This document shows, in pieces, positions 10,370 through 27,146 of a stretch of DNA of 27,146 nt. The notes beneath the pieces were generated by a model. It worked only from the letters and a program-made list of their open reading frames with translations, made no database searches and had not been told where the DNA came from. The DNA is from a virus, in the IMG/VR virus record IMGVR_UViG_3300017708_002303, positions 1 to 27,146 of that record, one strand, 5' to 3'. How positions within the stretch are numbered: the first letter of the stretch is position 1; each line of letters begins with the position of its first letter. A program made the position numbers and the translations under genes.

Positions 10370-13300
10370 TTAAATTTCAATATAGTTAACGAACTTCAGT
10401 GGATTGGTTCTTTGAACAATTCCAGCTGTTGAAATGCCAACATATCCGTCGAAGTTGTAAGAGTCAAACTCTTTGGGAATCGATCTAGCATTTAGACCAA
10501 TTCTTCCCCAACTGAATTTACCAAAATTGAATGAAGATGAAATACCACCAGTAAATACTTCAATCAATTGTGAATCATAAGTGAATAATGTAGAATCAAA
10601 TGAGATATCAGTTCCTGAGAAAGTTACAGTGCTCAATCCAGAAACATTACAGAATACTCGTTTTACTACCGTAGTACCAATACCAACTACTTGAGTAGTG
10701 ATTGTTTGGTGATCCCTAACCATCCAGACATTGTCAGCAAAGGTAGTTGTAATACCAATAGTTTTTGAACGATCATTTGTAACTGATTCTATCGTTCCAC
10801 TTCCAATACCAGTATTGAATGTGGTGAAGAAATCACCTGTTGAAATTCCACTAACAGTAATTGCTGTTCCAACATAACCACTATCTCTAAGGAATGAACC
10901 CTGATCAATAAAGAGATCAAAGATCACTCTATTATCACTACTTCCAATAGTTGTAGTTCCAAAACCAACAATTGTTCCGAAATCACCCTCGTAGGACAAT
11001 ACATCAATTTCTTCTTTCTTAATTGTTGGTGGTCCAAATAGAACCATAGGAACCTGTGAACCAGTGTATCCGACACCACCATTGGTAATGGTGACTGATG
11101 TGACTTTACCAGATGAGATGGAAGCCGTTGCTGTTGCAATTGTGGAAACACCAAGTGTAGATCCAATTGTGACTGTGGGTGCTACAGTATATCCAAGACC
11201 ATCGTTAGTGATTGAAATACTGGAGATAGTTCCAGCAATCGATACAATAGCCGTACCAGAAGCTCCAACAATATTATTTTGTGATGTGATTGTGATGGAA
11301 TCTTGGAAATCTCTAACTTGAGATTCATTATTGGAATCAAAGAGAGGTCTTAGACTATCAACATAAACTTCTGTAGAACCAAGACCAACAGGTTGAATCA
11401 GATAAGAAGTTGGATATATTTGAGGTTCATAGCTAATTCTATTTTTACCAACAACCTTTCCATTAATAAACTTGTCAACTGTTTGTTTACACCATGTCAC
11501 AGGTCTCAAGACACTTCTGTCACTTGTAATTCCAGGTCCTTGATAAACATTAGTTTCAACCGAATCAAGGGTATTGATACCAGTTACAGTTCTGATATCT
11601 TCATCGAAGATGGTGCCTTGGGTAGGTGGAAGATTATCAATATTGAGGTTGTCGCCGACTTTTATTGTTTCAATAACATTGGTAAAGACAACATCAACAT
11701 CTCCATTACCCTTGTAGAAGAGAACTTTGGAAGTGTCTCCAATCTTTGGAGGTTCGGAAAACTCTACAGTACTACCACCAGTAAACACATAACCTTTACC
11801 AGGTTCTTGAAGTATATCATTGATTATAATAATGAGCGTTTGATCAACTTCAACTTTTGAACCAGGGCCAGCTTGAATAGAAATAGCCTCACTGTTTAAA
11901 TTCAATCTGAAATCTCTTGTAGACCCATCAAACAAATCATCAAACTTGTCAAGAACTTGTAATTGACCAACAGACCAGCCACTAAAATTATCAGTAAATA
12001 CTCTATCAACACTAATTTGAAATTCTTCAAATGATACTGATGTATCAGTTGGTATTCCAGTAGTTCCTCCGATAGGAACAGTCAATATTTCACCTTCACC
12101 ATAAGCATATCCACCATACCTAAACTCAAAGTCAATAACGCTAGATCCTTGACCAACAACAATATTAACTGTTGCACTTTTTCCAACCCCAGTGACACTA
12201 GAAGAACTGTATTGGACAGGAATGTTAAAGTATGGAAGTGGATCATCAAACAATACTTCTGGTAGATTAGTTCCAGTGTAACCAGTTCCTGGGTTGGTGA
12301 TAGCAACACTAACGATGTTACCACCACTGATTGATGCAGTTCCGATAAAGTGGAGACTTGGTTCCCCATCAGTCTGAACACCAACATTAACAACTGTTTG
12401 AATACCAGATCTATATCCAGAACCACTATTAGCAATACTCACGGCAGTGATTGTACCAGCGGCGGAAACTGAGACAGTTCCTCCAGCGGCTACCAATGGT
12501 TGATATCCAAATCCACTAACTGTGCCAGCCGAAACTATTAGACCACCAATTGGAATATTACTATCATTTGGATCATGTCCATTGCTGATACCAATACCAC
12601 TGAATCTTACCGTTGATACACCTGCGGATTCTTCAATATCGTAAATTCCATCACCAACCACAGCTCCTTTAGGAACTTGGAAAATATTATTGATAAGGAT
12701 GATACCATTATCTGTTGAATAACCAACAGTGTTATTATCGTCATATTTTAAAGTGAAGCTAGTGTTGATTCCATTAAAATCATGTGATACATCATCAAAA
12801 ACAATATTGTTTAAATATGTTTCATTTGGAGAATTTATAGCAGATCTTCTCATGAAAGTTCTACCTTGGAAACTAGAAGAAGTTGTAATACCAGTCCAAT
12901 CTCTAGAATCAGGATCTGCAGCTGATGTAGTGCTTAATGGTCTATTGCCATGTGGTGCCGAAGCGAAGTTGATGGTATTTCCAACAATATTATAATTACC
13001 AGAAATTTTAGTAATCAGAGAACCATTAGAGTGTTCTTCAAGAGTAGAACCAAGTTGAGCTCTTCTACAACCAAATCTTGTTGAACCAGCAATACCAACA
13101 TCGGTGAGAATGATATATTCATCACCAATTCTAATAATGTCTTGAGATGCAAATGATGTTATGCCGGTTACATCAAATACTGTATCAAATACTATATTTT
13201 GATCTAGGTTTGTTGTGACCGCAGTTCCAGTAACAGGAGCTTGAATTCTATTATCAACAGCTACTAACGCTTTCGCATTTTGATTAATAGCAGTAAATAC

Positions 13301-16300
13301 ATGAGAGTTACCAATACCAAGAGAATTAATTGAAAAAGTTTCTGGAACTAATCTATTAGCTTTCTCTGATGTATCAGTAAACTTCAATCTAGCATCATCG
13401 ATTTTAACAACATAAAGTTCATTGGGAAGTTTATCAGTTAAACCAATACCAGAAACTGTTGTTGATGCAATACCAACAGTCATTGTTGTTCCAGTTCCAG
13501 CATGTGTATAAAGAATCTTTTCACCAGTTACGAAGAAGTGATTTGGAATCGAAATGGTTCCATCAGTGACATTGACAATATCGGAGTCACTTCCATCAAA
13601 ATCTCTCTCAAACATATCGAGTCCATCGTGTTTGAGACCAAATTTTGTAAGAAGATCAAGTTTTGTTCCTCTATATGTACCTTTATTGGAAGAAACAAAT
13701 ACATTACTATGATTTATTTGATTGGTATTGCTATTACCATCAAAGGTCTTAAAGTCAATACCAAAAGTTCTAACTTCTACATTGGCACTTGCAATTGGTG
13801 TATAAGTTAAGTTAATATTTGAACCAACAGAAGTAACTCCAACTGAACCAAGAGTGGAGGAACCCGTTATGACATTTGCGTAATCAGTAATATTTTGATT
13901 TGTTGATGAATTACAAATAACACATTCAAACATCTCATAGTCATTATTTGTTGTGTCAGTGACAACAACTACATTATATGATGCACTGAATGGATCAATA
14001 TATGTTGAAATAGCAACAGCACTTGGTGAACCAGATGATCCAATTGAAGTGAAAGTAGATTTCAATGTGGAAACATTCATTTCAAAGTTTCCAGCAGTTG
14101 TTCCAATACCAGAGAAAACAGTCAATGAAGTCTGAGCCTCATGTGTGGCAGCATTGTCTGGAATGAAGTTAATCTTCACAAGACCACTATCAATGAAAGA
14201 ACGATAAGTTCCAAGAGAACCACTAGAATTTGTTAGAGGACTGGTGTGAACATCACCATATTCTACATTATATACATTTGTACCATCATGAATAACATTC
14301 ATCTCAACAGCATGATATTCACCAGAGTTGATACCAGCCTGAGCCTCAACCATGGTTAAAACTTTAGCTGCTCTATTTGTTGTTGGGAAAGAAGCAATTG
14401 TTGTCTCAGATCCAGGAATAGTTACTTGACTACTAGTGAAATCAACAATATCTCCTATTTGTGTAGATCCAATACCAGTGATACTATCAAGAAGACTGAT
14501 AGATACACTTGATACATCATATGAATTAAATTCAAACTTAACTGGGTTGAATGTCAAATCCCATTTATCACCACTTATCAAATAATCATAGAAACCAAGT
14601 CTTGGATATGTTTCAACAGTAGCATATTCATTTACATATCCAGTTATGCTATCTTGAAGTATATTTACGATACTAAACTGTCTTTCGTCAGTATAAACAT
14701 CATCTTTCGCGAAAGTGAATACTTTATTGAAGACGAAGTTAAGATCATAGGACGATACATCTTCAAAAGGTTCAGCTCTCTCATTACTATTAAAGTATAC
14801 GCTAATATCATCAATTGAGAGAACTCTGTTTCCAATTGATTGGAAATAATCAGTGAGAATTTTATTCTCAAAGAAAATTTCATTAGAAACCATTTTACCA
14901 TTAACAAATTGAGTTCCCTCAGAAACAAAGTCAAAGTCATAAACACAATTTAAGTCACCCTCTCCGATAATATCAACAATAATTTCAATATTAGAATCAG
15001 ATGGTCTGACAATGGCGTCACCCTCATCAGTTTCTTCACTTACCAATTGATAATCAGCAAATTTAGCAAAACCAGAAGTGTGATTGAGATCACTGACTGG
15101 TCCTTCCCATTCTTGATATGGAACTCCACTAGAAAGTGAATAGGAGAACTTTTGATAATATTCATTATTAGGAATAACTTGAAGATTGTCATTCAAAAAT
15201 CCAACATTATCCTGCCAACCACGAATAACTGTAGCTCCAACACCAGTTGTAATTTCAGCGTTGAAATCGAGTTTATTAACAACAACAGCTTGAGTTTTGG
15301 AACTTCCACCTTTAATGACTGATCCTACTGGGAACTCCTTAGGCGTTTTTACTTTGATCTGTTCAAAATCACCTCTCCAATATTCAACAACACCAGTTAG
15401 TTCATCAAACAATCCACTAGTGACTGTTTCCCCAATTAAAAAGTCATTAGTCTTCATAGAGACATCAAATATTGGGAAGTGAGTCTCAGGGATAGCCCTA
15501 CCTGCATTTCCTATCTGAACTGTACCTGGGGTCTCACCAACCTCAAGTACACTAGACAAACTATATTCAATATATGCTCCAGAACCACCAATTTGTGGAA
15601 GTATTGCAGTTACGAGAAAAAGAGTGTAATCGTGGTCTACAGAATTGTAACCAACTCCATTGGAACCAGTTCCAATGTTGACATTTTCAACTAAGATTTT
15701 CTCACCAACAACAAATGGAAACTCTCTAGATGTACTAAACGTTTGATCCAGATATAATCTTACAGTTTTGGTAGAGTTATCATATGACATTGTGGAAATC
15801 CCCACACCATTTGTGTTTCGTGTTGGGATAATTTTAGGTTTAATATCATACATTCCAGTGGTGTTGTTCAAGATTGTCACTTTGGTATCACCAAGCTTAT
15901 AACGAAGATCAACTTCAGGGAGAATTTTATTAGTATAACCATCAATAACAACAAGTTTTGCTGGTATTAGATAATTTCTTCCAAAAGAACTAATACCAAT
16001 TGACTCGAAGGAGTTGAGTGATTTCATCTCCAGAACTTCTGGAAGATTAGCTACAGGTCTTAGAGTTTCATCGGTTGGGTAATCAAATCCAATGTTGTAA
16101 GAATCAAATCTACTTCTAAGGATTTTACCAATTTTATTACTTTTTGGCTCAAGAATTGAATCAGTACCAATACCACTGATAACATTACTAATTTTGGGTA
16201 TTCTGGAATAGTTGACACCAGGGTAGGTCAAATCAACTTTAGCAATTCCACCATATGCTACATTTGAATTAGTAATGTAAGAAGAAACAGAGTTTGATTT

Positions 16301-19300
16301 TGTATAAGTTGTCGCCTCTGGTTCTTTTAACAATTGATAGGAGAATGTGGTAGAACTAGTTCCAGTAACTCTATATTCTCCATCAAGTTTACTTAATTCT
16401 ATATTAATTTGATTAGATGGTGAGAAAGAACCTTCATCAATGACAATACCAGTTTTTGATTCAAAGTTGAAATCTTTATTAACTGGGATAAATTTATAAT
16501 ACAGTCTATCAGGAACATCATTAGTAACTTCAATTGTAAGATTTGCAGTCGAAGTGATACCAACTGATCCAGAGGAAGTAACCTCGAAAGACTTATCTTC
16601 TTTCTTTCCGGTTGTTGAAAATTCTTTATTAAATTTTTCATCAAGATAAACACTCATCTTGAAAGCTGGGTAACTCACGCCATTAGAAAGGAAAGAAAGT
16701 GATGAGTCACTCAAATCAAATTTAAGATTATTATTTTTTCTGGACACGACAAGAGGATTAATCTTTGAAATTGTGCCACCATCTCCCCCAGAAGTGAGAT
16801 CAATGAAACTCGGTTCTTCCTTATTGATTTCAAACTTTTCAGAAACAAGTTTAATTTTATTCTTATCAAATGGGACAACATAATACATCTTATTATCAAC
16901 TAGACCACCAGTTGAATCATCAGAAGTATGAATGACTTTATCACCAACAACAAAATTATGATTTGCTATGGTAATTAAATTTGATTGAATATTAACATTC
17001 TCAGAAGTAAATCCAATTGGATTGAATACAATTCTTCTATTGTAATCATTATATCTTACATCAATAACTTGTTCAGTATTTGGTTTGACCGTTATCTTTA
17101 CATCATCATCTACCAAAAGGCCATGTGTTGAAGCCGTAGATACAGTTACGACATTGGTGTTAACACTTCCTCTGAGAACATCAATTCTAGATGTTTTGAG
17201 ACTATGATAGTCACCAGTTCCGACACTATTGAAGTAGAAGAGACCACTTGTAGTTCCAACTCCAACATATTCGCCTGTGAGGGTTGAAAGACCAACCTTA
17301 TGGGATGAAATACCAATCAAATTTTTGTCAATTGGAGTAGCATATAAAGTATCATACTCAGTTAAATTTACATAACCATTAGATGTAAAACCATTCCAAA
17401 CTTGAAGAGATGATCCACTATTAGTGGAATAGTCAACTCTCTCATTGAATTTTAGACCATGATTTTTATAATAGATTGCCTGTGTTGGGATAAAGATTGA
17501 AGATGCACCAACACCTGGATTTCTAAATGTTACTACAGTGCCAACACCATTACCTGATGTTGTACCAACACCAACAGATTCTGAAGGATCAAAGTAAAAC
17601 TCATCATTAACTCTGAAATACTTTTCAGTGGTAATTGACCCTACATTAATTGTAAACTTTCTAGGATTTTCAAAAAGAATGGATCTATTAGTATGAGCAA
17701 TTCCAACTGTACCCTCTACTGCTCTGAGAACACGAATTCTTTCTGCTTCACTATCAATATTCAAAACTTTTACTTTCTCAGTTCCAATTCCGAGAATATC
17801 ATTTGGTCTTATGAATGGATAACCGAGAAGTCCAGAAGCATAGAAATATGTGGTAAATCCAGTGACAGATGTAGAACCAATACCTAATGTAACTACAAAA
17901 GTTTCAGTTCTGACACCAATTTGATAATTACTGTCAAAATTCTTATAATATGAAGAAAGGTTATTAACATTAACACGATCTCTATTCTTGAGATTGTGTG
18001 GTTGAGTGGAAAATCCAATAAATTTATTTTGATTAGAAATCTTAGTAAATTCAATATTTGTAATATCAGTAGAATCAACAGTTATCGTGTCAATTTCTTT
18101 ACCTTCAACATGAGAAACTTTAGCTTGAGCACTAGTTTCTATTCCATCTTGTTCAGACTCAAATACCAATCTATCATTAACTTGATAATTGCGACCACCA
18201 GTAAAAATTCCAATCTCATTCAGAGAACCAAGAGAGGACCCCGTTATATTAATTGTTTGTTTCTTAATTTTATTTGAATCAAAGATATAATCATATCCAC
18301 TGAATGTATTATTAGTATTATAAGTTGATGTATTTCTGAACCACTTATCAGATTGAATATCATAATCTACTTGATTAGATGTACTCTTATAGTTAAACTC
18401 ATTTCTCTTAGCATAGAAAGAGTTTCCAATGATATATGGGAACGATGGTCTTTTGTAGTTCTTAAAGGGTCCAGAACCGTCTACAATAGTGTTGAAAGTA
18501 GAGAAATAAGCATATATACCCTCAGGATAATCGGGGGTTACACAGAACCTTCCATTGTGAACATCCAGATCACCAACATTAGTAAATTTATAATCCTCAA
18601 TAAAGAAACCTTCAGGGAATATACTAAGTGATGGTCTATTTGTAGTATCCACAGACAATTCATATCCAGACTTTATTTGTTTAATAATTCCACCGTCTGG
18701 ATCTGTGTAACCATATGGACCATATATTGGAGAACCATCATAAGCCCATCCAAGAATTGGTGAGTGTGATGTATTGGAAACTTCCAACCCATTAATTCTT
18801 TCTAAATCTTGTATTCCATAGAATTTCTCACCACTATTAAGGAGAACATAGGTGTTCTCTCTTAAACTTCTAGGTGCATAGATATGACAATATTGAGTGC
18901 TATCTCCACTAATATTTTCTTCAACAATTCCATCATCATTAGTAATTTTTTCAAAGTTTCTAGAGAAAAGATTTATATTCCATTCATTGACATCAAATTC
19001 CACTACGGCATTAGTACCTGGGTTTTGAACTGTGATAGTAGTTTGACTATCAATATGATTCAAACCAGAATTAATTATTTTGACCTCAGTTAATTTTCCA
19101 TCATTGATAATTGGAGTTAATTTGGTAAATTTTCCAGGACCATTAATAATCAAGTTTGGTGGAGAAATGTAACCACCACCAGTATTGGTAATAACCACAT
19201 CAACTAGTCTACCATTATTAATAACAGGTTGAACTTGAGCTAAATTGCCACCCTCAAATGAAAAATCAGGTTGTCTATTAAAGTTGAGAATGTCCGATGT

Positions 19301-22300
19301 GCCATACCCATTACCTTCATTTGTCAGGTCAATGGAATCAATAGATCCTCTAAATGCTGGTTGAATTTGACACTGAAAACTCTGACCAGAACGACTGTCT
19401 ATACCAGTAACACCATCAATAGTAACTATGATGGGTTTATAGTTGAAAGTTCCCTCACCAATACTCTCAATATCAACAACAATGTCTCTACTGAAGAAAT
19501 ATTTCAAATTGGTATTACCAACACCGACCTCACTTAGTGAGAACGTATCATTATCAATCTTTCTTACATAATAATCCTTTGATTCTACAATACCAGATAT
19601 TGAACTTGATCCAGCAGTATATCTAATAATTTCTCCGGTTTTGTACCCATGATTTTTGATATCAAAACTATTTGAAGCAGTCGAAATACCAGATGATACA
19701 ATCTTTCTTTTCTTATTCTTATAACCAGAACCGGGACTAGTAACAACAATACTACTTACAACATTTTTTTTCTCAACAGTCTTAATACTCTGAATACCAA
19801 GTCCATAATTAACAAGATCTACAGTATTGATACCAACTTGAGAATCAGTCGTATTGTTATGAAGTGTTATGGTTAAATTATCAACAACATTTACAAAATA
19901 GGAAGAATTTGTAGATAGGCCACTGACACCTTTCATTCCCCTTGAGTTATAAATTATTTCCTCATCTTGTCTAAATTTGTGGAATGTGCTGAATCCAATT
20001 TCATCAGTTGTAAGATTGATATTTCCGTTAACTTCTGTATTAATATTAACTTCATAAACATCTTCAATGAGGTTTGCTACAGCTTGAGCGTCTTTGTCAG
20101 GATTACCACCACTGATACTAACTATTGGTGTGGTCTTAAAATCAAAACCACCATCAATGATGTCAATTCTTTCAAGATTACCTTCAACTGCGACTGTTCC
20201 AGTTGCACCAGTACCTACCAAATCACTAATGACAAACTCTGGAGGATTAATTACATCATATCCGAAACCACCACCTGTTACCGTTAATCCTTTTATTGGT
20301 CCATAGAAAACTGAATCATCTGATTTGTAGTTGAGAATTTCAACACCATTGATGAACATCCCATTGTAACCAGGTGCAGTTATGAAGTTTCCAGCTCCTT
20401 CATCAACTGTTTTTGTAAACTCTCTGAAAATACCTTGTGGTTCAAGAGGTTTCTGATAGAAATTATAATAAGTGAATTTATTATCAACTACTGTTCCAGA
20501 AAAAGTTACATATTTGTCCTGAAATAAATTAGCTCTACTTCTTGATAATTTTATTGAAGTATCATTGTATTTTCTTACATAGTAAACAGCCTCATCCAAA
20601 CCTTCAAATTTACTTATCGTAGTGTAGCTTGAAGAATCAAACTCATTAGTTGTATCAGTTGTAATTCTTCCTGCGGAATAAAAGATAGCATCACCAGTAT
20701 AGAAACCGTGATTGGTTCCAAAATCAATAATATCTGTACCAGCAGATGAAGCCGAACCAGAGAATTCTAATGTTTTATTATATGGGTCAAGTGGTGTGTT
20801 TTCATAAACTGGGATTGAATTCGATGCGACAATAATTTCTCCATCAAAGTTGGAATATGTGTCTTGTACATTCGCAATATACTTTTCAAGAAAATTATAA
20901 TTTGGAGATGATGTTTTAATAATTTGATTTTCAAACTTCCAGGTATTATCAACTTTTATTTTAATAGAAGCCTTGATAACGAAACTTTTTTCAGAAGTAA
21001 CTCTTGTAATTACACCATTGACAGTATTGTCAAAATTATCAGATAATACAATTCTGTATCCAGGACTCATATGATGATTATCATATGTGTTAATAGAGTA
21101 CTTATTCTCAAGAACATCAGTTATTTCAACAGATAAAATATTGTAATAAGATTTTGTATTGTTTATCCATTCTGATGAATTGATAGATTTATCTTCAATT
21201 CCCATAGATTGAATATTAATAATATCGTTCTTTTCGTAATTATAATTGTTTGATTCTACCTTCAACTCTTTCAAAGTTGAGGTAATCTTCACTCTTATTT
21301 CTTCACTAGTATTGATACCGACATATGCATAGGCATAGTCGTCTAATCTTATATCGGTCTTTTCAACTAATGTATTTGGAACAGGATCAACATTTAAAAA
21401 TTGATTTAAATTCTTTCCACCATAGTTAATTTCTATTTCATTACCATCAATATCAATGATTTCAAGTTTTCCAGTTTTGGGAAAACTCAGTGTTGAATCG
21501 ACATCAATGATTGTTGAACCAGATGCAACCTGTGTTAAAATCTTTGTTTTGGGATTTGATTCAAACTTTCCATATATTGAACCATTAGTATTAATATCTC
21601 TATCATACCCGAAATCAATACTAAGTTGATAATACTCCCCATTACCATAATCAACTTGAGCAGCACGAGTTATCGTTCCACGGGAACCAGTTGAATCTTG
21701 AAAAAGTGTAAGACTTTGAAGATCTAGTGGATCACCGACTTTTTTCTCTACTACAATATCTTGAGTTACACTGTATGATGCATCAGATGGTCTGAAAAGG
21801 AATTGACTCGGACGAATAATGTCAACACTCTTACCAAAAAGAGCTTTAAAAAGTATCTTATATGATAAGTCTGTTCCTTTCGTCTTATAAAAACTATCAC
21901 TATTGATGATGAAGTTCTTTTGATTTGTCTTTAAATTTCTATTACCAAATCCTGGACTAATTTGAGACTTTAATTTTCTAAAGAACTCTTGTAAAAATAA
22001 AACATTTAAATTTTGAATTACATCACCCGATGAATGATCATCTGGTATGGTAGAACTTTCAAATGTTAATCTATCTGTAACATTGGATGTATATGAACTG
22101 ATTCCACTAAATCCCCTATGGCAATTTTGGAATGTAGTATTATTCTTTGTTTCATATAATATAATCTCATCACCAATTTTGATGAGACCATTTCTATCTA
22201 AAAATCCCTCAGTATTACCTTCTACAACAATATCTTTAGCTACAGAATCAATATCATTTCTCAGTTCAGCATTAGAAACTAAATTGGTAAGGTTGTCTAT

Positions 22301-22468
22301 ATTTACATACTTGTCAATGTTTTGCAACAGATCAAGTGTGGCACCTTGAGTTTCCTGAGAAACATAATACTGTTCCAAAAATTCTGAAAGAAGAGGAAAG
22401 TCTTCTCTTATAAAAGATGGAAGTTGACTTGCAACTGTATCTTGAAATTTGACTCTATCTATTGACAT
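10370..22468 (-). CDS. 7: Giant gp7-type baseplate wedge protein (4032 aa)
   Basis: This uninterrupted 4032-aa frame sits directly after gp6, the gp7 position in T4. Residues 12-55 (QLPSFIREDFPLLSEFLEQYY) and 150-300, including SFYKTKGTDLSYKILFKALF (192-211), match by memory the C-terminal part of T4 gp7 (DSNFEAFCEAYIQYLSDGYG; DFYSTKGIEASYKFLFKVLY). T4 gp7 is about 1030 residues, so the conserved core is here at the N-terminus and some 3700 residues of other sequence follow. Those include NHG/YYV repeats (near 587, 831, 940, 1836 and 2976), G-x-GY beta repeats (730-795, 1040-1160, 3326-3410, 3740-3813), IGDE modules (98-135, 1553-1598, 3109-3155), two 'IxxxxQxPG' modules (3233-3293, 3511-3590) and a YHYH-like domain (1190-1355). 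It probably joins wedge and fibres. ATG 22468 follows the gp6 stop by 12 bases; the ribosome site is weak. Confidence 0.88.
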   Translation of the reverse strand: MSIDRVKFQDTVASQLPSFIREDFPLLSEFLEQYYVSQETQGATLDLLQNIDKYVNIDNLTNLVSNAELRNDIDSVAKDIVVEGNTEGFLDRNGLIKIGDEIILYETKNNTTFQNCHRGFSGISSYTSNVTDRLTFESSTIPDDHSSGDVIQNLNVLFLQEFFRKLKSQISPGFGNRNLKTNQKNFIINSDSFYKTKGTDLSYKILFKALFGKSVDIIRPSQFLFRPSDASYSVTQDIVVEKKVGDPLDLQSLTLFQDSTGSRGTITRAAQVDYGNGEYYQLSIDFGYDRDINTNGSIYGKFESNPKTKILTQVASGSTIIDVDSTLSFPKTGKLEIIDIDGNEIEINYGGKNLNQFLNVDPVPNTLVEKTDIRLDDYAYAYVGINTSEEIRVKITSTLKELKVESNNYNYEKNDIINIQSMGIEDKSINSSEWINNTKSYYNILSVEITDVLENKYSINTYDNHHMSPGYRIVLSDNFDNTVNGVITRVTSEKSFVIKASIKIKVDNTWKFENQIIKTSSPNYNFLEKYIANVQDTYSNFDGEIIVASNSIPVYENTPLDPYNKTLEFSGSASSAGTDIIDFGTNHGFYTGDAIFYSAGRITTDTTNEFDSSSYTTISKFEGLDEAVYYVRKYNDTSIKLSRSRANLFQDKYVTFSGTVVDNKFTYYNFYQKPLEPQGIFREFTKTVDEGAGNFITAPGYNGMFINGVEILNYKSDDSVFYGPIKGLTVTGGGFGYDVINPPEFVISDLVGTGATGTVAVEGNLERIDIIDGGFDFKTTPIVSISGGNPDKDAQAVANLIEDVYEVNINTEVNGNINLTTDEIGFSTFHKFRQDEEIIYNSRGMKGVSGLSTNSSYFVNVVDNLTITLHNNTTDSQVGINTVDLVNYGLGIQSIKTVEKKNVVSSIVVTSPGSGYKNKKRKIVSSGISTASNSFDIKNHGYKTGEIIRYTAGSSSISGIVESKDYYVRKIDNDTFSLSEVGVGNTNLKYFFSRDIVVDIESIGEGTFNYKPIIVTIDGVTGIDSRSGQSFQCQIQPAFRGSIDSIDLTNEGNGYGTSDILNFNRQPDFSFEGGNLAQVQPVINNGRLVDVVITNTGGGYISPPNLIINGPGKFTKLTPIINDGKLTEVKIINSGLNHIDSQTTITVQNPGTNAVVEFDVNEWNINLFSRNFEKITNDDGIVEENISGDSTQYCHIYAPRSLRENTYVLLNSGEKFYGIQDLERINGLEVSNTSHSPILGWAYDGSPIYGPYGYTDPDGGIIKQIKSGYELSVDTTNRPSLSIFPEGFFIEDYKFTNVGDLDVHNGRFCVTPDYPEGIYAYFSTFNTIVDGSGPFKNYKRPSFPYIIGNSFYAKRNEFNYKSTSNQVDYDIQSDKWFRNTSTYNTNNTFSGYDYIFDSNKIKKQTINITGSSLGSLNEIGIFTGGRNYQVNDRLVFESEQDGIETSAQAKVSHVEGKEIDTITVDSTDITNIEFTKISNQNKFIGFSTQPHNLKNRDRVNVNNLSSYYKNFDSNYQIGVRTETFVVTLGIGSTSVTGFTTYFYASGLLGYPFIRPNDILGIGTEKVKVLNIDSEAERIRVLRAVEGTVGIAHTNRSILFENPRKFTINVGSITTEKYFRVNDEFYFDPSESVGVGTTSGNGVGTVVTFRNPGVGASSIFIPTQAIYYKNHGLKFNERVDYSTNSGSSLQVWNGFTSNGYVNLTEYDTLYATPIDKNLIGISSHKVGLSTLTGEYVGVGTTSGLFYFNSVGTGDYHSLKTSRIDVLRGSVNTNVVTVSTASTHGLLVDDDVKITVKPNTEQVIDVRYNDYNRRIVFNPIGFTSENVNIQSNLITIANHNFVVGDKVIHTSDDSTGGLVDNKMYYVVPFDKNKIKLVSEKFEINKEEPSFIDLTSGGDGGTISKINPLVVSRKNNNLKFDLSDSSLSFLSNGVSYPAFKMSVYLDEKFNKEFSTTGKKEDKSFEVTSSGSVGITSTANLTIEVTNDVPDRLYYKFIPVNKDFNFESKTGIVIDEGSFSPSNQINIELSKLDGEYRVTGTSSTTFSYQLLKEPEATTYTKSNSVSSYITNSNVAYGGIAKVDLTYPGVNYSRIPKISNVISGIGTDSILEPKSNKIGKILRSRFDSYNIGFDYPTDETLRPVANLPEVLEMKSLNSFESIGISSFGRNYLIPAKLVVIDGYTNKILPEVDLRYKLGDTKVTILNNTTGMYDIKPKIIPTRNTNGVGISTMSYDNSTKTVRLYLDQTFSTSREFPFVVGEKILVENVNIGTGSNGVGYNSVDHDYTLFLVTAILPQIGGSGAYIEYSLSSVLEVGETPGTVQIGNAGRAIPETHFPIFDVSMKTNDFLIGETVTSGLFDELTGVVEYWRGDFEQIKVKTPKEFPVGSVIKGGSSKTQAVVVNKLDFNAEITTGVGATVIRGWQDNVGFLNDNLQVIPNNEYYQKFSYSLSSGVPYQEWEGPVSDLNHTSGFAKFADYQLVSEETDEGDAIVRPSDSNIEIIVDIIGEGDLNCVYDFDFVSEGTQFVNGKMVSNEIFFENKILTDYFQSIGNRVLSIDDISVYFNSNERAEPFEDVSSYDLNFVFNKVFTFAKDDVYTDERQFSIVNILQDSITGYVNEYATVETYPRLGFYDYLISGDKWDLTFNPVKFEFNSYDVSSVSISLLDSITGIGSTQIGDIVDFTSSQVTIPGSETTIASFPTTNRAAKVLTMVEAQAGINSGEYHAVEMNVIHDGTNVYNVEYGDVHTSPLTNSSGSLGTYRSFIDSGLVKINFIPDNAATHEAQTSLTVFSGIGTTAGNFEMNVSTLKSTFTSIGSSGSPSAVAISTYIDPFSASYNVVVVTDTTNNDYEMFECVICNSSTNQNITDYANVITGSSTLGSVGVTSVGSNINLTYTPIASANVEVRTFGIDFKTFDGNSNTNQINHSNVFVSSNKGTYRGTKLDLLTKFGLKHDGLDMFERDFDGSDSDIVNVTDGTISIPNHFFVTGEKILYTHAGTGTTMTVGIASTTVSGIGLTDKLPNELYVVKIDDARLKFTDTSEKANRLVPETFSINSLGIGNSHVFTAINQNAKALVAVDNRIQAPVTGTAVTTNLDQNIVFDTVFDVTGITSFASQDIIRIGDEYIILTDVGIAGSTRFGCRRAQLGSTLEEHSNGSLITKISGNYNIVGNTINFASAPHGNRPLSTTSAADPDSRDWTGITTSSSFQGRTFMRRSAINSPNETYLNNIVFDDVSHDFNGINTSFTLKYDDNNTVGYSTDNGIILINNIFQVPKGAVVGDGIYDIEESAGVSTVRFSGIGISNGHDPNDSNIPIGGLIVSAGTVSGFGYQPLVAAGGTVSVSAAGTITAVSIANSGSGYRSGIQTVVNVGVQTDGEPSLHFIGTASISGGNIVSVAITNPGTGYTGTNLPEVLFDDPLPYFNIPVQYSSSSVTGVGKSATVNIVVGQGSSVIDFEFRYGGYAYGEGEILTVPIGGTTGIPTDTSVSFEEFQISVDRVFTDNFSGWSVGQLQVLDKFDDLFDGSTRDFRLNLNSEAISIQAGPGSKVEVDQTLIIIINDILQEPGKGYVFTGGSTVEFSEPPKIGDTSKVLFYKGNGDVDVVFTNVIETIKVGDNLNIDNLPPTQGTIFDEDIRTVTGINTLDSVETNVYQGPGITSDRSVLRPVTWCKQTVDKFINGKVVGKNRISYEPQIYPTSYLIQPVGLGSTEVYVDSLRPLFDSNNESQVRDFQDSITITSQNNIVGASGTAIVSIAGTISSISITNDGLGYTVAPTVTIGSTLGVSTIATATASISSGKVTSVTITNGGVGYTGSQVPMVLFGPPTIKKEEIDVLSYEGDFGTIVGFGTTTIGSSDNRVIFDLFIDQGSFLRDSGYVGTAITVSGISTGDFFTTFNTGIGSGTIESVTNDRSKTIGITTTFADNVWMVRDHQTITTQVVGIGTTVVKRVFCNVSGLSTVTFSGTDISFDSTLFTYDSQLIEVFTGGISSSFNFGKFSWGRIGLNARSIPKEFDSYNFDGYVGISTAGIVQRTNPLKFVNYIEI
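11030..11265 (-). repeat. G-x-GY beta-repeat pair in the gp7-type protein, near C-terminus
   Basis: The encoded residues (about 3735-3813) hold two tandem units, ISSISITNDGLGYTVAPTV and VTSVTITNGGVGYTGSQVP, each a short strand then N-x-G-x-GYT and a proline turn. The pair closely parallels that at 12235-12535, ending in VLFGPP here and VLFDDP there, so one tandem pair has probably been duplicated within the gene. Confidence 0.75.
12235..12535 (-). repeat. G-x-GY beta-repeat cluster in the gp7-type protein, partner copy
   Basis: The encoded residues (about 3312-3412) include ITAVSIANSGSGYRSG and IVSVAITNPGTGYTGTNLPE, preceded by a shorter GTVSGFGYQP unit. Order, spacing and C-terminal ending match the pair at 11030-11265. 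I read this as an internal duplication of a beta-rich surface module. Confidence 0.75.
18420..18890 (-). other. YHYH-like domain embedded in the gp7-type protein
   Basis: Residues about 1190-1355 contain GWAYDGSPIYGPYGYTDPDG, then NGRFCVTPDYPEGIYAYF, then FPYIIGNSFYAK. From memory these are the core signatures of the YHYH family, small secreted or surface proteins of unknown function, mostly bacterial. The name-giving Tyr-His-Tyr-His is not intact: the equivalent region reads YCHIYAP. Its role on a phage baseplate is unknown. Confidence 0.7.
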
Positions 22469-22480
22469 TATTTTACAATC

Positions 22481-24505
22481 TTAGTAGGATGAACCGGATG
22501 AACCAGAACTTGCGGTCGTAGACACACTGGTTGTATTCAATCTAGAAACATTTTGATTATTTACAGATGTTCCTGTTGATGAGACGATAGAGTGCCCTCC
22601 ATCACCACGAACCAAGCTTCCACTTGAATAACTTGAAGATACGGTGTAGGTGCCACCTGATACATCACTTCCTGAAGAGATTGAATCAGAAATTGGAGTT
22701 ACATTTAACCTGGAAGGATCCATTTGTAAATAGAGGTCTTGAAGACCAATTATATCGTTTGAATAAGGACAAGCTGAAACTTCAATGAGAGGAGCACCAC
22801 GAACGACTTCTGTTGATAACACATTTAACGGATTCAAACTAATGAGTCCTTTGACATAATCAATAGTTCCGATGTTCCTCTTAACAATAACTGGCTCAGT
22901 CGGTGAGTTTAATCTAAACAAGAAAATTGTTCCTGTTCTCAAATCCGCATTTGGTGAATCACTCATGTAAACAGTTCCACTAATTCCACTTACGGTAAAA
23001 CCAGAAGTCTTAATATTGAAACCAATTTGACTCTTGATGTGAATTTGATTTCCAAATCCAATACTATACTCTACGAACTGATTTTGAGAAGGTGATAAAT
23101 CTCTTCTCATATGAATTATAGTAATGTTCGACGTAATGAATTCATTACTATCGTCAACCACTTTAATGAATTTACTATATTTAAATCTAGCCCCAAACTT
23201 ATTTAACTGAGTAGAATTAGCGTAGTTTGTGATATTATTAGTCACCGAGGTTACTACTTGTGATGACCCTGATGTTAGGTTGGAATTATAATAGACATTA
23301 GTATCAACTTCAATAAACAAATACTTCAAATCAATGATTTCTGATACAATACCAGCTACAGAGTATTTTCTAAGTTCGAGTTGAATATTTCTCTTTACCT
23401 CGTCAGATATGAAGACACCATTATATGGTTTGATACTGATAAAGACTTTTCCATATTGTGGTGGATCAGTTTCTTCCCCACCATATGCTGATACTGATTC
23501 GGTTTCGGGATAGATTCTTGGGATGAGTGTTTCAAAATCAGTTGATGTTACAGCTCTGTTTTGGGATGAATAGATGTTAGGTGCTAACTTCTTAATTGAT
23601 TCGACACTTTCAATCTCCGCTCCACCACTTGAAACACTATTAACTGTTAAACCAGAAATTCCAGAAGTAACGGTAGCACCATTTTGATCGATAAGTGATC
23701 CAATATATGTAAAACTGGAAAGATTATTTGCTACTGATCCACTACAAGACAAATAAGTAACTTCAATTTGATTTGGTTCTTCTATAGATTTACCAAACAC
23801 ACCGTCACCAAATAATAATTCATATCTCTCTGCTTCAGTTTCTCTTAAAAAATAAAGAGGTGTATCCGTATCAACACCAATTAAATTGTCATATTGTGTA
23901 TATTTTCTTGTAACGGTAGATGTGGAGGAATCTCTCACAAGTACTCTAATATTATTAGTATCGATACCAGAATTTGGTAATACAAATCTTTGATTTGGTA
24001 GAGATGAATTTACAACAAATACTGAATTTAAATATGAACCTTCACACACATTGATATCATCAAATACAGCTGTACCAGTTGAGTCAACGGGGACAGTAAT
24101 GTCCTCCATAATACAAAAAGTAAATGATTGTTTATTGAAGTTTGAAGCACTCAATGCTAGAGGACCAGCTTTGAGTGTTAGAGTTGAAACATTAGAAGAT
24201 GATACATCAACTGAAAAACTAATATTAGTTTTACTTGATTTCCTTGATCTAGGAAGATATCCAATATTTCTTGCAATCGATACAACATTTTCTCTCAGTG
24301 TCGCACTATCAAGAAACACTTCATTCGACACCATATTGGCGTTGTATGAAGAGATATATGTGTTATACGCTAATGTGTCTATGATAGCCGATAGGTTTGA
24401 TCCCTCAAAGTCATAATCCGTAAAATTAGAATTAGCTCTAAGGTAATCTTTGATGGATTGTTTAATACCATCAAAATCGACATTACTGAAATTTACTAAA
24501 GGCAT
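22481..24505 (-). CDS. 6: Baseplate wedge subunit gp6
   Basis: This 674-aa protein is close in length to T4 gp6 (about 660), the dimeric wedge protein that forms the continuous inner ring of the baseplate with gp25, gp53 and gp7. The N-terminus (VNFSNVDFDGIKQSIKDYLR, then DYDFEGSNLSAIIDTLAYNT, then SNEVFLDSATLRENVVSIAR, about residues 4-80) is typical of gp6 and the wider phage baseplate J family. The frame starts at ATG 24505, one base after the gp25 stop codon, so translation is probably coupled; AGGT lies just upstream. The last 65-70 residues are a Ser/Thr/Gly-rich low-complexity tail (for example SVSTTASSGSSGSSY at the end) that I do not recall from T4 gp6. The gp7-type gene follows after 12 bases. 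Confidence 0.93.
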   Translation of the reverse strand: MPLVNFSNVDFDGIKQSIKDYLRANSNFTDYDFEGSNLSAIIDTLAYNTYISSYNANMVSNEVFLDSATLRENVVSIARNIGYLPRSRKSSKTNISFSVDVSSSNVSTLTLKAGPLALSASNFNKQSFTFCIMEDITVPVDSTGTAVFDDINVCEGSYLNSVFVVNSSLPNQRFVLPNSGIDTNNIRVLVRDSSTSTVTRKYTQYDNLIGVDTDTPLYFLRETEAERYELLFGDGVFGKSIEEPNQIEVTYLSCSGSVANNLSSFTYIGSLIDQNGATVTSGISGLTVNSVSSGGAEIESVESIKKLAPNIYSSQNRAVTSTDFETLIPRIYPETESVSAYGGEETDPPQYGKVFISIKPYNGVFISDEVKRNIQLELRKYSVAGIVSEIIDLKYLFIEVDTNVYYNSNLTSGSSQVVTSVTNNITNYANSTQLNKFGARFKYSKFIKVVDDSNEFITSNITIIHMRRDLSPSQNQFVEYSIGFGNQIHIKSQIGFNIKTSGFTVSGISGTVYMSDSPNADLRTGTIFLFRLNSPTEPVIVKRNIGTIDYVKGLISLNPLNVLSTEVVRGAPLIEVSACPYSNDIIGLQDLYLQMDPSRLNVTPISDSISSGSDVSGGTYTVSSSYSSGSLVRGDGGHSIVSSTGTSVNNQNVSRLNTTSVSTTASSGSSGSSY

Positions 24506-24506
24506 C

Positions 24507-24908
24507 TTACCTAGTGGGTTCTAATGCGAACTGGAGTTGTTGTGTTTCTGCTTCAATACCAACAATATTATATGTAATTGTCACGTTGAACTCATGAGCG
24601 TCAATGTCAGGTGTCACGGTAACAGAGTCAATACTGACCCTTGGTTCAAAGTTACTAATCGTGTTTTTTATTTGAGTTTGAATTGCAAAAGCAGTTTGTA
24701 AATCAAAATTCTCAAATAATAATCTGTAAACTTCAGAACCTAATGCTGGATTGAATGGTCTTTCACCAGGAACTGTTAACACAAGATTACGAATAGATCT
24801 TGCAATAGCATTCTCATTGCGAAGTGCTATTAGGTCATAGTTCAGAGGATTAATCTGAAATGAAGCACTTATATCTCTGAAAGCTTTGCTAATTCTTTCT
24901 GCTGGCAC
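24507..24908 (-). CDS. 25: Baseplate wedge subunit gp25 (lysozyme-like fold, TssE family)
   Basis: This 133-aa protein equals T4 gp25 in length (132 aa). It belongs to the GPW/gp25 family, shared with TssE of type VI secretion, and initiates sheath assembly from the wedge. The family EPR motif is present as NFEPRV (E88-P89-R90) before the final beta strands. The N-terminal segment with RSIRNLVLTVPGERPF and LGSEVYRLLFENFD is also characteristic. The start is GTG at 24908 with only an A-rich upstream stretch (AAAAAAG) rather than a clear Shine-Dalgarno, so initiation may be weak; no ATG lies suitably upstream. A CATAAATA late motif lies 26 bases upstream. The gene is followed almost without gap by gp6, its direct wedge partner. 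Confidence 0.93.
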   Translation of the reverse strand: MPAERISKAFRDISASFQINPLNYDLIALRNENAIARSIRNLVLTVPGERPFNPALGSEVYRLLFENFDLQTAFAIQTQIKNTISNFEPRVSIDSVTVTPDIDAHEFNVTITYNIVGIEAETQQLQFALEPTR

Positions 24909-24933
24909 CTTTTTTGATACTACAAATCTGCTT

Positions 24934-24941
24934 TATTTATG
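24934..24941 (-). promoter_or_regulatory. Candidate late promoter (CATAAATA) upstream of gp25
   Basis: The minus strand reads CATAAATA, one base from T4 TATAAATA and consistent with the NATAAATA late motif I recall for a cyanophage. It overlaps the TAA stop of the 52-aa gene and lies 26 bases upstream of the gp25 GTG start. It would drive the gp25-gp6-gp7 block as a late unit. Confidence 0.6.
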
Positions 24942-25095
24942 TGTGTTCTGATAGAGTTTCTTGCCCACACTTACACACATGATCTGGATCACTGCAATCC
25001 TCTTCAGATTCAAACAAACCATCCTCATTTACAATCCTTTTGTTCTTTGGTGTTTGTCTATCGTTATTAATTTCTCTTAACAGATTGTCTTCCAT
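24937..25095 (-). CDS. Small acidic Cys-containing hypothetical protein (52 aa)
   Basis: The frame runs from ATG 25095 to TAA 24937, filling the gap between the 225-aa gene and gp25. The product begins MEDNLLREINNDRQTPKNKR and ends in a Cys/acidic half containing EEDCSDPDHVCKCG (residues 31-44). C34, H39, C41 and C43 could bind a metal such as zinc, but the site is small and this is a guess. The only ribosome-site hint is AAG seven bases upstream. I do not recognise the family with certainty, although small genes at this position are usual in cyanomyoviruses. Support for it being real is the clean open frame, charged composition and tight packing (23 bases after the upstream gene's stop). Confidence 0.65.
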   Translation of the reverse strand: MEDNLLREINNDRQTPKNKRIVNEDGLFESEEDCSDPDHVCKCGQETLSEHT

Positions 25096-25118
25096 TTTAC
25101 TTAGAATATAATTACTAT

Positions 25119-25796
25119 CTATGGATCATGATTGAGAGTATCCTCTTCCTTACGTTCCTTAGATGTCTTCCAGAAGTATTCATCTTCTCGTCCCATACCA
25201 AGACGTTCAAAACCATTCTCAACAGAATAGTATTGTGTTGATACTTTAAAGTCTGGTATCTTTGGATCCTCAGGTGTCAAACTGTTATCAAAGATACGCA
25301 TTCTATTATTTGGATACAATGCATACTGTCCATTCTCTAATTCAATTAGATTATGTGACTTATGTTCTGCAGGATTCTCTGATGTCGCATAATCAATTGT
25401 ATCAGGATCTTGGTGGTAGTTATCTAAGGTACAAATATATGTTCCTTTCATAATACCATGATCTCTTGTATAGAGCTCATAATCCATACTACCAATAAAC
25501 TGTTTCTGAACAGTTACTACACCATAGTCCATACAATTCCAGAACTGTAGGTTCGGTAGGTTCATATCAGGTGTTGGTGTCTCTGGATCTGATACAAAGG
25601 CACTGATTGGTAGTTTATCATACATTGCAGCATATTCAGGGAGGTATGTCTCAAAGTAAAATGCACGTCCTGGGATGGACTTACATGACACCCAGACACC
25701 CTTTACAAACTCTCCATGACCACTTTGATGGTCCGTAAGATATTCTTTCCTTACCCATACTTCAGTCGAAGGTAGATTAGCAATCAGACATGCCAT
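25119..25796 (-). CDS. Conserved hypothetical protein, cyanophage type (225 aa)
   Basis: This 225-aa protein has no signal peptide or membrane segment and no catalytic motif that I recognise. It is rich in Tyr, Asp and Pro, with five cysteines (C3, C38, one in FWNCMDYG, one in TYICTLDN and none in the charged C-terminus beyond that are clearly seen by eye). The C-terminal 25 residues are highly charged (WKTSKERKEEDTLNHDP). The start ATG 25796 has a good GAGG ribosome site eight bases upstream. It is the first gene after the terminator at 25829-25848 and precedes the 52-aa gene and gp25, so it is likely co-expressed with baseplate genes. I recall similar proteins beside gp25 in cyanomyoviruses but no assigned function. 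The cysteine count should be taken as approximate. Confidence 0.8.
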   Translation of the reverse strand: MACLIANLPSTEVWVRKEYLTDHQSGHGEFVKGVWVSCKSIPGRAFYFETYLPEYAAMYDKLPISAFVSDPETPTPDMNLPNLQFWNCMDYGVVTVQKQFIGSMDYELYTRDHGIMKGTYICTLDNYHQDPDTIDYATSENPAEHKSHNLIELENGQYALYPNNRMRIFDNSLTPEDPKIPDFKVSTQYYSVENGFERLGMGREDEYFWKTSKERKEEDTLNHDP

Positions 25797-25828
25797 ACAT
25801 GAATCCTCAGTTAATATATCTATGCATT

Positions 25829-25848
25829 AAAAAGACCCCGAAGGGTCT
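25829..25848 (-). terminator. Intrinsic terminator with UUCG tetraloop
   Basis: On the minus strand the sequence is AGACCC-TTCG-GGGTCT followed by TTTTT, a perfect six-pair stem with a stable UUCG loop and a U-tract. It lies seven bases after the stop of the 48-aa gene and 33 bases before the 225-aa gene start. It should end the transcript from the sigma70 promoter at 26857-26885. Confidence 0.9.
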
Positions 25849-25854
25849 AGTTGA

Positions 25855-26001
25855 TTATCGTCCTTGTCCCCTATATCTCTTCTTCTTATGATTGGAACTT
25901 GTAGCCGCGTATTTTGTATGTTGGCCCGATCCTTGTCGGGATTTTTTTGGTTGTGATTCAATAAACACATTACCTAACAGACTCTTCTTAACTTTAGCCA
26001 T
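25855..26001 (-). CDS. Very basic 48-aa cyanophage protein
   Basis: The frame runs from ATG 26001 to TAA 25855. The product starts MAKVKKSLLGNVFIESQPKK and ends KKKRYRGQGR, with about one third Lys or Arg and very few acidic residues, suggesting nucleic-acid or other polyanion binding. From memory nearly identical small proteins are widespread in cyanomyoviruses without assigned function. It has the best ribosome site in the window, AGGAGGT with seven-base spacing, so high expression is likely. It is co-transcribed with the glycosyltransferase gene 15 bases upstream and is followed immediately by the terminator. Role is unknown. Confidence 0.85.
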   Translation of the reverse strand: MAKVKKSLLGNVFIESQPKKSRQGSGQHTKYAATSSNHKKKRYRGQGR

Positions 26002-26008
26002 ACTCTGT

Positions 26009-26015
26009 ACCTCCT
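26009..26015 (-). promoter_or_regulatory. Strong ribosome binding site (AGGAGGT) for the 48-aa gene
   Basis: The minus strand reads AGGAGGT, fully complementary to the anti-Shine-Dalgarno core, with a seven-base spacer to ATG 26001. Its strength contrasts with the weak sites of the large baseplate genes. Confidence 0.85.
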
Positions 26016-26016
26016 A

Positions 26017-26835
26017 TTAAATAACACGCATTTTTTCATGACCCACACGAATACGAGGATCACACCAAATCTCATAACCTGCCTCGATAGCATCTAAACA
26101 GAATGAAACATCCTCTCCACACATATCTTGAACAGCTCCTGATTCAAACACCTGCATCTTCGGTGCAAACCATGGATACTTCATCTCCTTATTCTCAAAG
26201 ACACCCTTACGAATCATTACCCATCCGAAACCTGTGTAGTCTACAGTAAAAGGCTTCTTACGATTCTGAATACTATCAACCATCTCATGATTCATTACAC
26301 CACCATTGTTACGGAAGTCATCTTCTTCCAACCAATGTGCAACTGAGGTGGTTCTCCCGTCTTCTGTGGAATACCAACCAGCAGAAATCGGACGGTCTGC
26401 TCCTTCAATCTCATTACCTTCTTCATCAATTGCTGATGCAGGTAATGCTACATCACACAACTGCCAAAACTTCTCTGTGTTAAACACAATGTCACTATCA
26501 ATCCACAACTGATAGTCATATCCTAACTTACCATCCCATGGAATTTGATCAGGTCCACGAAGTACATTAGCACCTAAACACTTACAACGTGCAAAGTTTA
26601 CCATTGATGAGTAATCCTGACTGATCTGAATACTCATTCCGTTCTGTACCATGTCAAAACACAACTGAACGAAGTTCTTCATAAACGTATATGAACATCC
26701 ACGTCCTGGTAGACAAAATACAACTGTCTTCCCACGCATCCTTGCCTTGATAGCATCATAATCCCATTCAGGTGTATCTGTCTTCTTTACTCCACTCTTG
26801 GGCTTTGATGCTTTTACTGTAAATCCTTTAGCCAT
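26017..26835 (-). CDS. GT-A-fold glycosyltransferase-like protein (272 aa)
   Basis: The features are those of a GT-A (family 2-like) glycosyltransferase: LWIDSDIVF with a DxD-type metal/nucleotide-sugar motif D113-S114-D115, GWYS and GFGWVMIRKGVF segments, then GEDVSFCLDAIEAGYEIWCD (240-259) with an acidic pair E241-D242 in the usual catalytic-base region, and H266 in RVGHEK. The Lys-rich N-terminus (residues 1-20) may be an extension before the fold begins at about KTVVFCLPGRG (36-46). No membrane segment is seen. The acceptor could be host surface sugar, a virion protein or DNA; the sequence does not say. A perfect sigma70 promoter lies just upstream, leaving a leader of only about 15 bases without a clear Shine-Dalgarno. 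I recall close relatives in cyanomyoviruses. Confidence 0.8.
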   Translation of the reverse strand: MAKGFTVKASKPKSGVKKTDTPEWDYDAIKARMRGKTVVFCLPGRGCSYTFMKNFVQLCFDMVQNGMSIQISQDYSSMVNFARCKCLGANVLRGPDQIPWDGKLGYDYQLWIDSDIVFNTEKFWQLCDVALPASAIDEEGNEIEGADRPISAGWYSTEDGRTTSVAHWLEEDDFRNNGGVMNHEMVDSIQNRKKPFTVDYTGFGWVMIRKGVFENKEMKYPWFAPKMQVFESGAVQDMCGEDVSFCLDAIEAGYEIWCDPRIRVGHEKMRVI

Positions 26836-26856
26836 AAGTCTGTGTAACTCAATTCA

Positions 26857-26885
26857 ATTATAGTCTGTATATGTATCTTTGTCAA
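26857..26885 (-). promoter_or_regulatory. Perfect-consensus sigma70 promoter for the glycosyltransferase unit
   Basis: On the minus strand TTGACA (26880-26885) and TATAAT (26857-26862) are both exact and separated by 17 bases, the optimum. The predicted start of transcription near 26850 is about 15 bases upstream of ATG 26835. The TGA stop codon of the upstream 68-aa gene lies inside TTGACA. A host-type promoter of this quality in a late region suggests early expression by host RNA polymerase. Confidence 0.9.
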
Positions 26886-27088
26886 TAAGATGATTCTTCA
26901 AGATCCATGGTCGGTTTGCTCACCATCTCATATGAAAGATCATCTTCCTCATATTCAGTCTTCATTAATCCTACCATCGCCTTTAATGTCGTCCATGTCT
27001 CACTGAATCCTTCTTCAGTAATACACGAAACCACACACTCATCACGAAGGTATATGTGATAGAATTTATCTGGGGAAAATTTTTGCAT
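26882..27088 (-). CDS. Small conserved hypothetical protein (68 aa)
   Basis: The product starts MQKFSPDKFYHIYLRDECVV and is acidic, with MVGLMKTEYEEDDLSYEMV in its second half. I recall similar short proteins with an F-Y-H-I-Y-L-x-D core and a D-D-L-S-Y-E segment in cyanomyoviruses, with no known function. I chose ATG 27088; a GTG at 27091 in the same frame would add one residue, but it abuts the AGGAG ribosome site. AGGAG is only two bases from ATG, which is short. No other in-frame start exists before an upstream stop at 27137-27139. The TGA stop is part of the -35 box of the next promoter. Confidence 0.75.
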   Translation of the reverse strand: MQKFSPDKFYHIYLRDECVVSCITEEGFSETWTTLKAMVGLMKTEYEEDDLSYEMVSKPTMDLEESSY

Positions 27089-27107
27089 CACTCCTTTTTG
27101 GGGGTTC

Positions 27108-27119
27108 GTTTTATATATC
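27108..27119 (-). promoter_or_regulatory. Possible promoter element (GATATATAAAAC) upstream of the 68-aa gene
   Basis: An AT-rich block on the minus strand lies about 20 bases upstream of the start, the same distance as the TATAAATA upstream of gp8. It matches TATAAATA only partly (TATAAAAC), and no good -35 is visible, so it may be a degenerate late promoter or nothing. Confidence 0.25.
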
Positions 27120-27146
27120 GACCCTCGGCATAGATTTCAAAAAAAA

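Follow-up and report, generated by a model that had tools for sequence, protein, structure and literature searches.

The window, i.e. the whole stretch of 27,146 bases that was analysed, is an IMG/VR virus record whose genes lie mainly on the minus strand. Homologues of gp25, gp6, gp10 and gp8 are encoded in it. Its best relatives are T4-like phages infecting Synechococcus and Prochlorococcus, and the stretch represents part of a T4-like marine cyanophage genome. The locus described here comprises the following features.

26882 to 27088, minus strand: upstream gene, phrog_2626 (E=1.6e-12), ending in Ser-Ser-Tyr and a stop within the -35 hexamer
26882 to 26884, minus strand: TGA stop codon of this upstream ORF, in the -35 hexamer
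26880 to 26885, minus strand: -35 hexamer TTGACA (sequence match; columns 1 to 5 change little on the tree)
26870 to 26876, minus strand: late-promoter-like spacer element ATACATA ([AC]TANATA), one mismatch from [AC]TAAATA
26864, minus strand: start expected from T4 geometry if the spacer element were to act as a T4-type late promoter
26857 to 26862, minus strand: -10 hexamer TATAAT (sequence match)
26836 to 26850, minus strand: predicted 15-nt leader of the sigma70 transcript, followed by the ATG at 26835
26017 to 26835, minus strand: phrog_1574 gene, 272 aa (E=1e-118), with a weak likeness to glycosyltransferases (phrog_34859, E=5.6e-6)
25855 to 26001, minus strand: small basic protein, phrog_516 (47 residues given, E=1.7e-24)
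25833 to 25848, minus strand: terminator-like hairpin closing the two-gene unit of phrog_1574 and phrog_516 (looser scan only)

The start codon assigned to phrog_1574 is supported by the N-terminus MxKGFTVK, common to 24/24 aligned homologues, and the upstream phrog_2626 ORF begins with ATG 27088 or GTG 27091. For the phrog_1574 product, a Pfam search up to E 0.1 returned no family, no solved structure was matched (best E 0.92) and the AlphaFold model is of low confidence (mean pLDDT 49.8). A literature search found no paper on PSSM2_106, which is the homologue in P-SSM2, on PSSM2_105 or on T4-GC 102, and an Rfam scan of 25700-27146 gave no RNA at the gathering score. The phrog_516 gene is probably co-transcribed with phrog_1574. 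The hairpin at 25848-25833 falls below the stricter T-run cut and passes the looser scan; a strict terminator-like hairpin occurs 740-1300 nt past the phrog_1574 start codon at 39 of 89 loci, compared to 0.4% of shuffles.

The two-gene unit is located just upstream of the phrog_3704, gp25 and gp6 genes, with which the baseplate block starts. An earlier, sequence-only reading of this DNA had placed the promoter inside a late gene block; it borders the gp25/gp6 block on the upstream side instead. For phrog_3704 (25119-25796), the PHROGs name ferredoxin disagrees with the name purM in several phage records, and with no Pfam match up to E 0.1 neither name is supported. Elsewhere in the window, an ORF of 4032 aa occupies the gp7 position (10370-22468), where S-SM2 carries a gp7 gene of about 12.5 kb and Syn9 an ORF of about 18 kb. 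Late-promoter cores (ATAAATA or CTAAATA) at 24939, 10366 and 8510 on the minus strand are situated just upstream of the gp25, gp10-like and gp8-like genes.

The perfect TTGACA-N17-TATAAT reported in the sequence-only reading, which did not state the strand, is present at 26885-26857 on the minus strand. With 12/12 matching positions and a spacing of 17, it agrees with the near-consensus hexamers and the spacing of 16-18 expected of a host-type sigma70 promoter, and +1 is predicted at 26850, the usual 6 nt after the -10 hexamer. It is the sole perfect match, with spacers of 15-19, in all 27,146 bases. Dinucleotide shuffles of the window contain on average 0.07 perfect sites, and 7 of 100 shuffles hold at least one. 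A looser scan of 15000-27146 returned 56 sites compared to 56.1 expected, 26885-26857 being the only one with 12/12 matches. That the weaker sites of the region occur at chance level is the one point in favour of a chance match without function.

Perfect sites of this kind were described as rare even among strong phage promoters. Within related cyanophages they recur, so that rarity in this phage group is not supported: among the matches listed, S-SM2 has 8 perfect N17 sites, SynMITS9220M01 7, Bellamy 6, S-B05 4 and P-TIM68 2. In S-SM2, sites with at most one mismatch number 25 on the coding strand and 1 on the other, whereas a reversed-pattern control gave 0 and 1. From this count and strand bias we regard the window site as a member of a host-type promoter class carried by these genomes. 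As a separate observation, the start predicted for 5 of 125 strong sigma70 sites is situated within a terminator hairpin, between 4 and 6 nt from the 5' end of the hairpin (S-SM2 168080; SynMITS9220M01 171778 and 182980; Bellamy 185033; S-SCSM1 125583), compared to 8 of 5000 random positions. RNA starting there would miss most of the 5' arm and might escape a terminator that stops transcripts from upstream.

To compare the intergenic region in relatives, 97 upstream regions of phrog_1574 were gathered (the window, 80 IMG/VR loci and 16 phage records), of which 92 were kept after removal of 3 duplicates and 2 regions that were too short. The homologue of S-TIM5 is distant, with an extrapolated start, and was left out of the protein tree, the bootstrap of which had not settled. 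A sigma70 match of at least 10/12 with a spacing of 16-18 is retained in 87 of the 92 distinct regions and is perfect in 35; in 1840 shuffles, 5.9% reach 10 or 11 matches and none is perfect. The five regions without the promoter are L036, L087, L009 (ACG-2014f), L100 (S-CAM7) and L101 (S-TIM5). On the tree of the 87 promoters the columns of the -35 hexamer change 0, 2, 1, 1, 1 and 10 times, and positions 1, 2, 4, 5 and 6 of the -10 hexamer 0-3 times each, compared to at least 20 changes for most spacer columns. The third -10 position varies among the relatives (T 48, A 23, G 15, C 1).

With 87 of 92 orthologous starts retaining it, we take the promoter as real, in agreement with the strong host-type promoter proposed earlier. 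Judged by these alignments, it is kept by selection across the phrog_1574-bearing cyanophages. A functionless chance match is contradicted by this conservation, by the lack of any perfect site in the 1840 shuffles and by the genome-wide strand bias in relatives, and we consider it extremely improbable.

As read before, the TGA stop of the upstream gene (26884-26882) is embedded in the -35 hexamer, and this overlap recurs: of the 87 promoters, 84 have a TGA within the hexamer, and for 62 of these it is the stop codon of an ORF with 30 codons or more. Ser-Tyr or Ser-His ends 55 of the 62 ORFs, with differing serine codons, and 52 of the 62 cluster with the phrog_2626-like ORF of the window. A few of the remaining ones may be spurious, for example that of S-SM2 with 38 codons, where the annotated upstream gene stops 15 nt before the promoter. 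Four ORFs ending in the -35 hexamer form another family (L096, L103, also L065 and L086). Two of them, in L096 and L103, are 2OG-Fe(II) oxygenases (phrog_81; P-SSM2 and S-8S53) whose annotated ends are the same TGA. A different gene thus precedes the promoter at these loci, an oxygenase in place of phrog_2626, yet the TGA in the hexamer and with it the junction are unchanged, a pattern reminiscent of a recombination junction at the promoter. At other sigma70 sites a stop overlap is found in 19 of 120 cases, compared to 62 of 84 here; it is a recurrent economy and not unique.

On the downstream side, the leader of about 15 bases given in the sequence-only reading is borne out by the predicted +1 at 26850 and the ATG at 26835. 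The further suggestion of a near-leaderless first gene fits this short distance in the window and is otherwise doubtful. Leaderless mRNAs have the start codon at or within a few nucleotides of the 5' end, whereas a predicted 15 nt precede it here; the predicted leader measures 15-23 nt in 84 of 87 relatives, most commonly 17 (32/87). Shine-Dalgarno-like stretches are common as well: AAGG, AGGA, GGAG or GAGG is found between the -10 hexamer and the ATG in 58 of 87. In 52 of the 58 it begins between +1 and +7 of the transcript predicted from the sigma70 site, and in 41 it lies 12 or 13 nt from the ATG. The only remnant in the window is GAG at +1 to +3 (26850-26848). Folding of the leader revealed nothing unusual (z -0.09 and 0.43), and an unusual leader structure was rejected on these values.

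In the Syn9 transcriptome of Doron et al. from 2016, host-like promoters were reportedly assigned to middle genes, which makes the early transcript start implied by the sequence-only reading doubtful. Syn9 itself shows no annotated phrog_1574 homologue by name between 50001 and 100000, and it is not among the best 60 of 103 related records in either of two listings. The combination of an early promoter and a near-leaderless first gene could draw on the host-type sequence, on the predicted 15-nt leader and on sigma70-like motifs that precede homologues of early genes in S-PM2 and Syn9, as described in passages of a 2010 review (PMC2984593). Against this stand the leader lengths and the purine-rich Shine-Dalgarno-like stretches of the relatives together with the reported middle timing in Syn9, and we regard this combination as decidedly unlikely.

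The sigma70 part of the site is, on the evidence of related genomes, ordinary; nested in its spacer is a conserved late-promoter-like element that the earlier reading had missed. TANATA is found in the spacer of 81 of the 87 phrog_1574 promoters and absent from 6. The same motif occurs in 3 of 120 other sigma70 sites from five related genomes, and 5.7% of the shuffled spacers contain it. The background sites were selected more strictly (at least 11/12, spacing 17); at matched criteria the numbers are 57 of 61 and 3 of 120. A+T richness is ruled out as the cause, as only 2 of 59 background spacers with an A+T content of at least 0.6 contain TANATA. The offset of the element to the -10 hexamer is -12 in 54 relatives, -14 in 10, -15 in 9, -11 in 5 and -13 in 3, so that the register varies although the element itself is retained. 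Since the TANATA columns are invariant by selection of the sites, the informative positions are confined to the third base, the flank and the columns at a fixed offset. The third base is A in 28, C in 26, T in 23 and G in 4 promoters with at least 23 changes on the tree, and the preceding base is A or C in 81/81 relatives and A in the window. In summary, -35, spacing, -10, stop overlap and [AC]TANATA are all conserved.

The flanking base is that of true late sites. In 471 upstream regions of the five genomes, [AC]TAAATA was observed 97 times compared to 18.2 in shuffles, whereas [GT]TAAATA remained at the shuffled level (16 and 16.9); [AC]TACATA, the form of the window, occurred 21 times compared to 8.2. 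The exact core TAAATA is present in 28 of 87 phrog_1574 spacers, in contrast to 81 of 81 upstream regions of gp25. Among cultured relatives, P-TIM68 carries the exact core, whereas S-SM2 and Bellamy share TACATA with the window. For selected structural genes, most of them picked for having the core in S-SM2, 65 gene-genome pairs comprised 50 with TAAATA, 3 with a variant core alone and 12 with none. Upstream of phrog_3704, TAAATA was found in 20 of 41 cases, TAGATA in 8 and TACATA in 4; judging from this gene, relaxed late cores may be common at non-structural genes. With its third base free in comparison to gp25, the spacer element lacks the constraint typical of standard late promoters, and as the window carries TACATA instead of the T4-type core TAAATA we do not count it among the T4-type late promoters.

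The nested layout is not unique. In two pattern scans of viral_contigs, at least 135 of 141 sites among the matches listed are not beside phrog_1574, and with a permuted control pattern this applies to at least 121 of 122; these counts are no measure of relative frequency.

Two alternatives draw on the free third base. The locus could be a plain host-sigma70 promoter, probably of the middle phase, with TANATA read by a factor other than gp55 or acting via DNA shape. The contrast to gp25, the deviation of the window copy from the late consensus and the fact that the sigma70 part alone accounts for the perfect hexamers speak for it; other sigma70 promoters of the same genomes, however, manage without TANATA even when A+T-rich, and the A or C before the element is as at true late sites. 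We consider this a possible explanation, though hardly the probable one. A further reading, in which [AC]TANATA marks an undescribed or modified middle-to-late cyanophage factor read inside the sigma70 spacer, so that one 29-bp site passes from host to phage specificity, follows from the same free base and appears unlikely.

Enrichment over the background, the shifting register and the A/C flank favour a late-type element. Whether it would work like a T4-type late promoter is, on these patterns, evenly balanced. In T4, the late promoter TATAAATA occupies -13 to -6, which would place the corresponding start in the window at 26864. The reading we put forward, and to which we give an even chance, is a mid-to-late relay: a host-sigma70 promoter, probably of the middle phase, with a nested late-like element. 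The compact sigma70 promoter would drive the two-gene unit of phrog_1574 and phrog_516. Before late transcription, host RNA polymerase with its main sigma factor would use the -35 and -10 hexamers and start at about 26850. Synthesis of gp55, gp33 and the gp45 clamp, all three annotated in S-SM2, would then shift use to the spacer element, with a start at about 26864, some 14 nt upstream. The sigma70 and late holoenzymes would overlap on the same DNA and exclude each other, resulting in a hand-over rather than a sum. We infer the RNA start at either place, the reading of the spacer element by gp55 and the timing from sequence patterns.

Such a relay could also affect translation. The late-like transcript, about 14 nt longer at its 5' end, would carry the purine stretch inside the leader and not at its very end. 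It could therefore be better translated than the sigma70 mRNA.

Taken together, the alignments describe a promoter that is real, conserved, compact and located at a module border. Middle-phase and late-phase transcription may both be served by this single short piece of DNA. Within about 50 bp it would hold two types of promoter and a stop codon, and in relatives a ribosome site as well. The timing of middle genes in T4-like cyanophages without MotA and AsiA is called unclear in passages of the 2010 review (PMC2984593). The conserved 29-bp site, combining a perfect host promoter with a late-like element, offers a small and directly testable model of the middle-gene switch.

Several known systems resemble parts of this arrangement. 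Host-type (sigma70/RpoD) promoters of cyanophages share the TTGACA-N17-TATAAT sequence, the genomes and the strand bias; elsewhere, however, the TANATA spacer is rare and the stop overlap less frequent, as counted above. The cyanophage T4-type late promoter is given as NATAAATA for S-PM2 and Syn9 in the review (PMC2984593). The spacer element resembles it in the A or C before the core and in the retained TA.ATA, and at about 40 nt from the start codon it lies within the 23-59 nt found for late promoters of structural genes. It differs in the free third base, in the TACATA of the window and in its position inside a sigma70 spacer. A third resemblance is to overlapping promoters. According to the same passages (PMC2984593), cyanophages are reported without motA and asi homologues, middle transcription in RB49 is believed to rely on early and late promoters that overlap, and this scheme has also been proposed for S-PM2 and seems to apply to Syn9, while some S-PM2 genes expected to be middle gave no middle profile by Q-PCR. 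Our locus resembles RB49 and S-PM2 in that a sigma70 promoter and a candidate late element precede one gene, in a phage group reported there to be without MotA and AsiA. Its sigma70 part is clear, and the late core, exact in some relatives, is one mismatch away in the window. A possible difference is that the late-like element is here contained within the 17-nt spacer of a single promoter and conserved at one locus.
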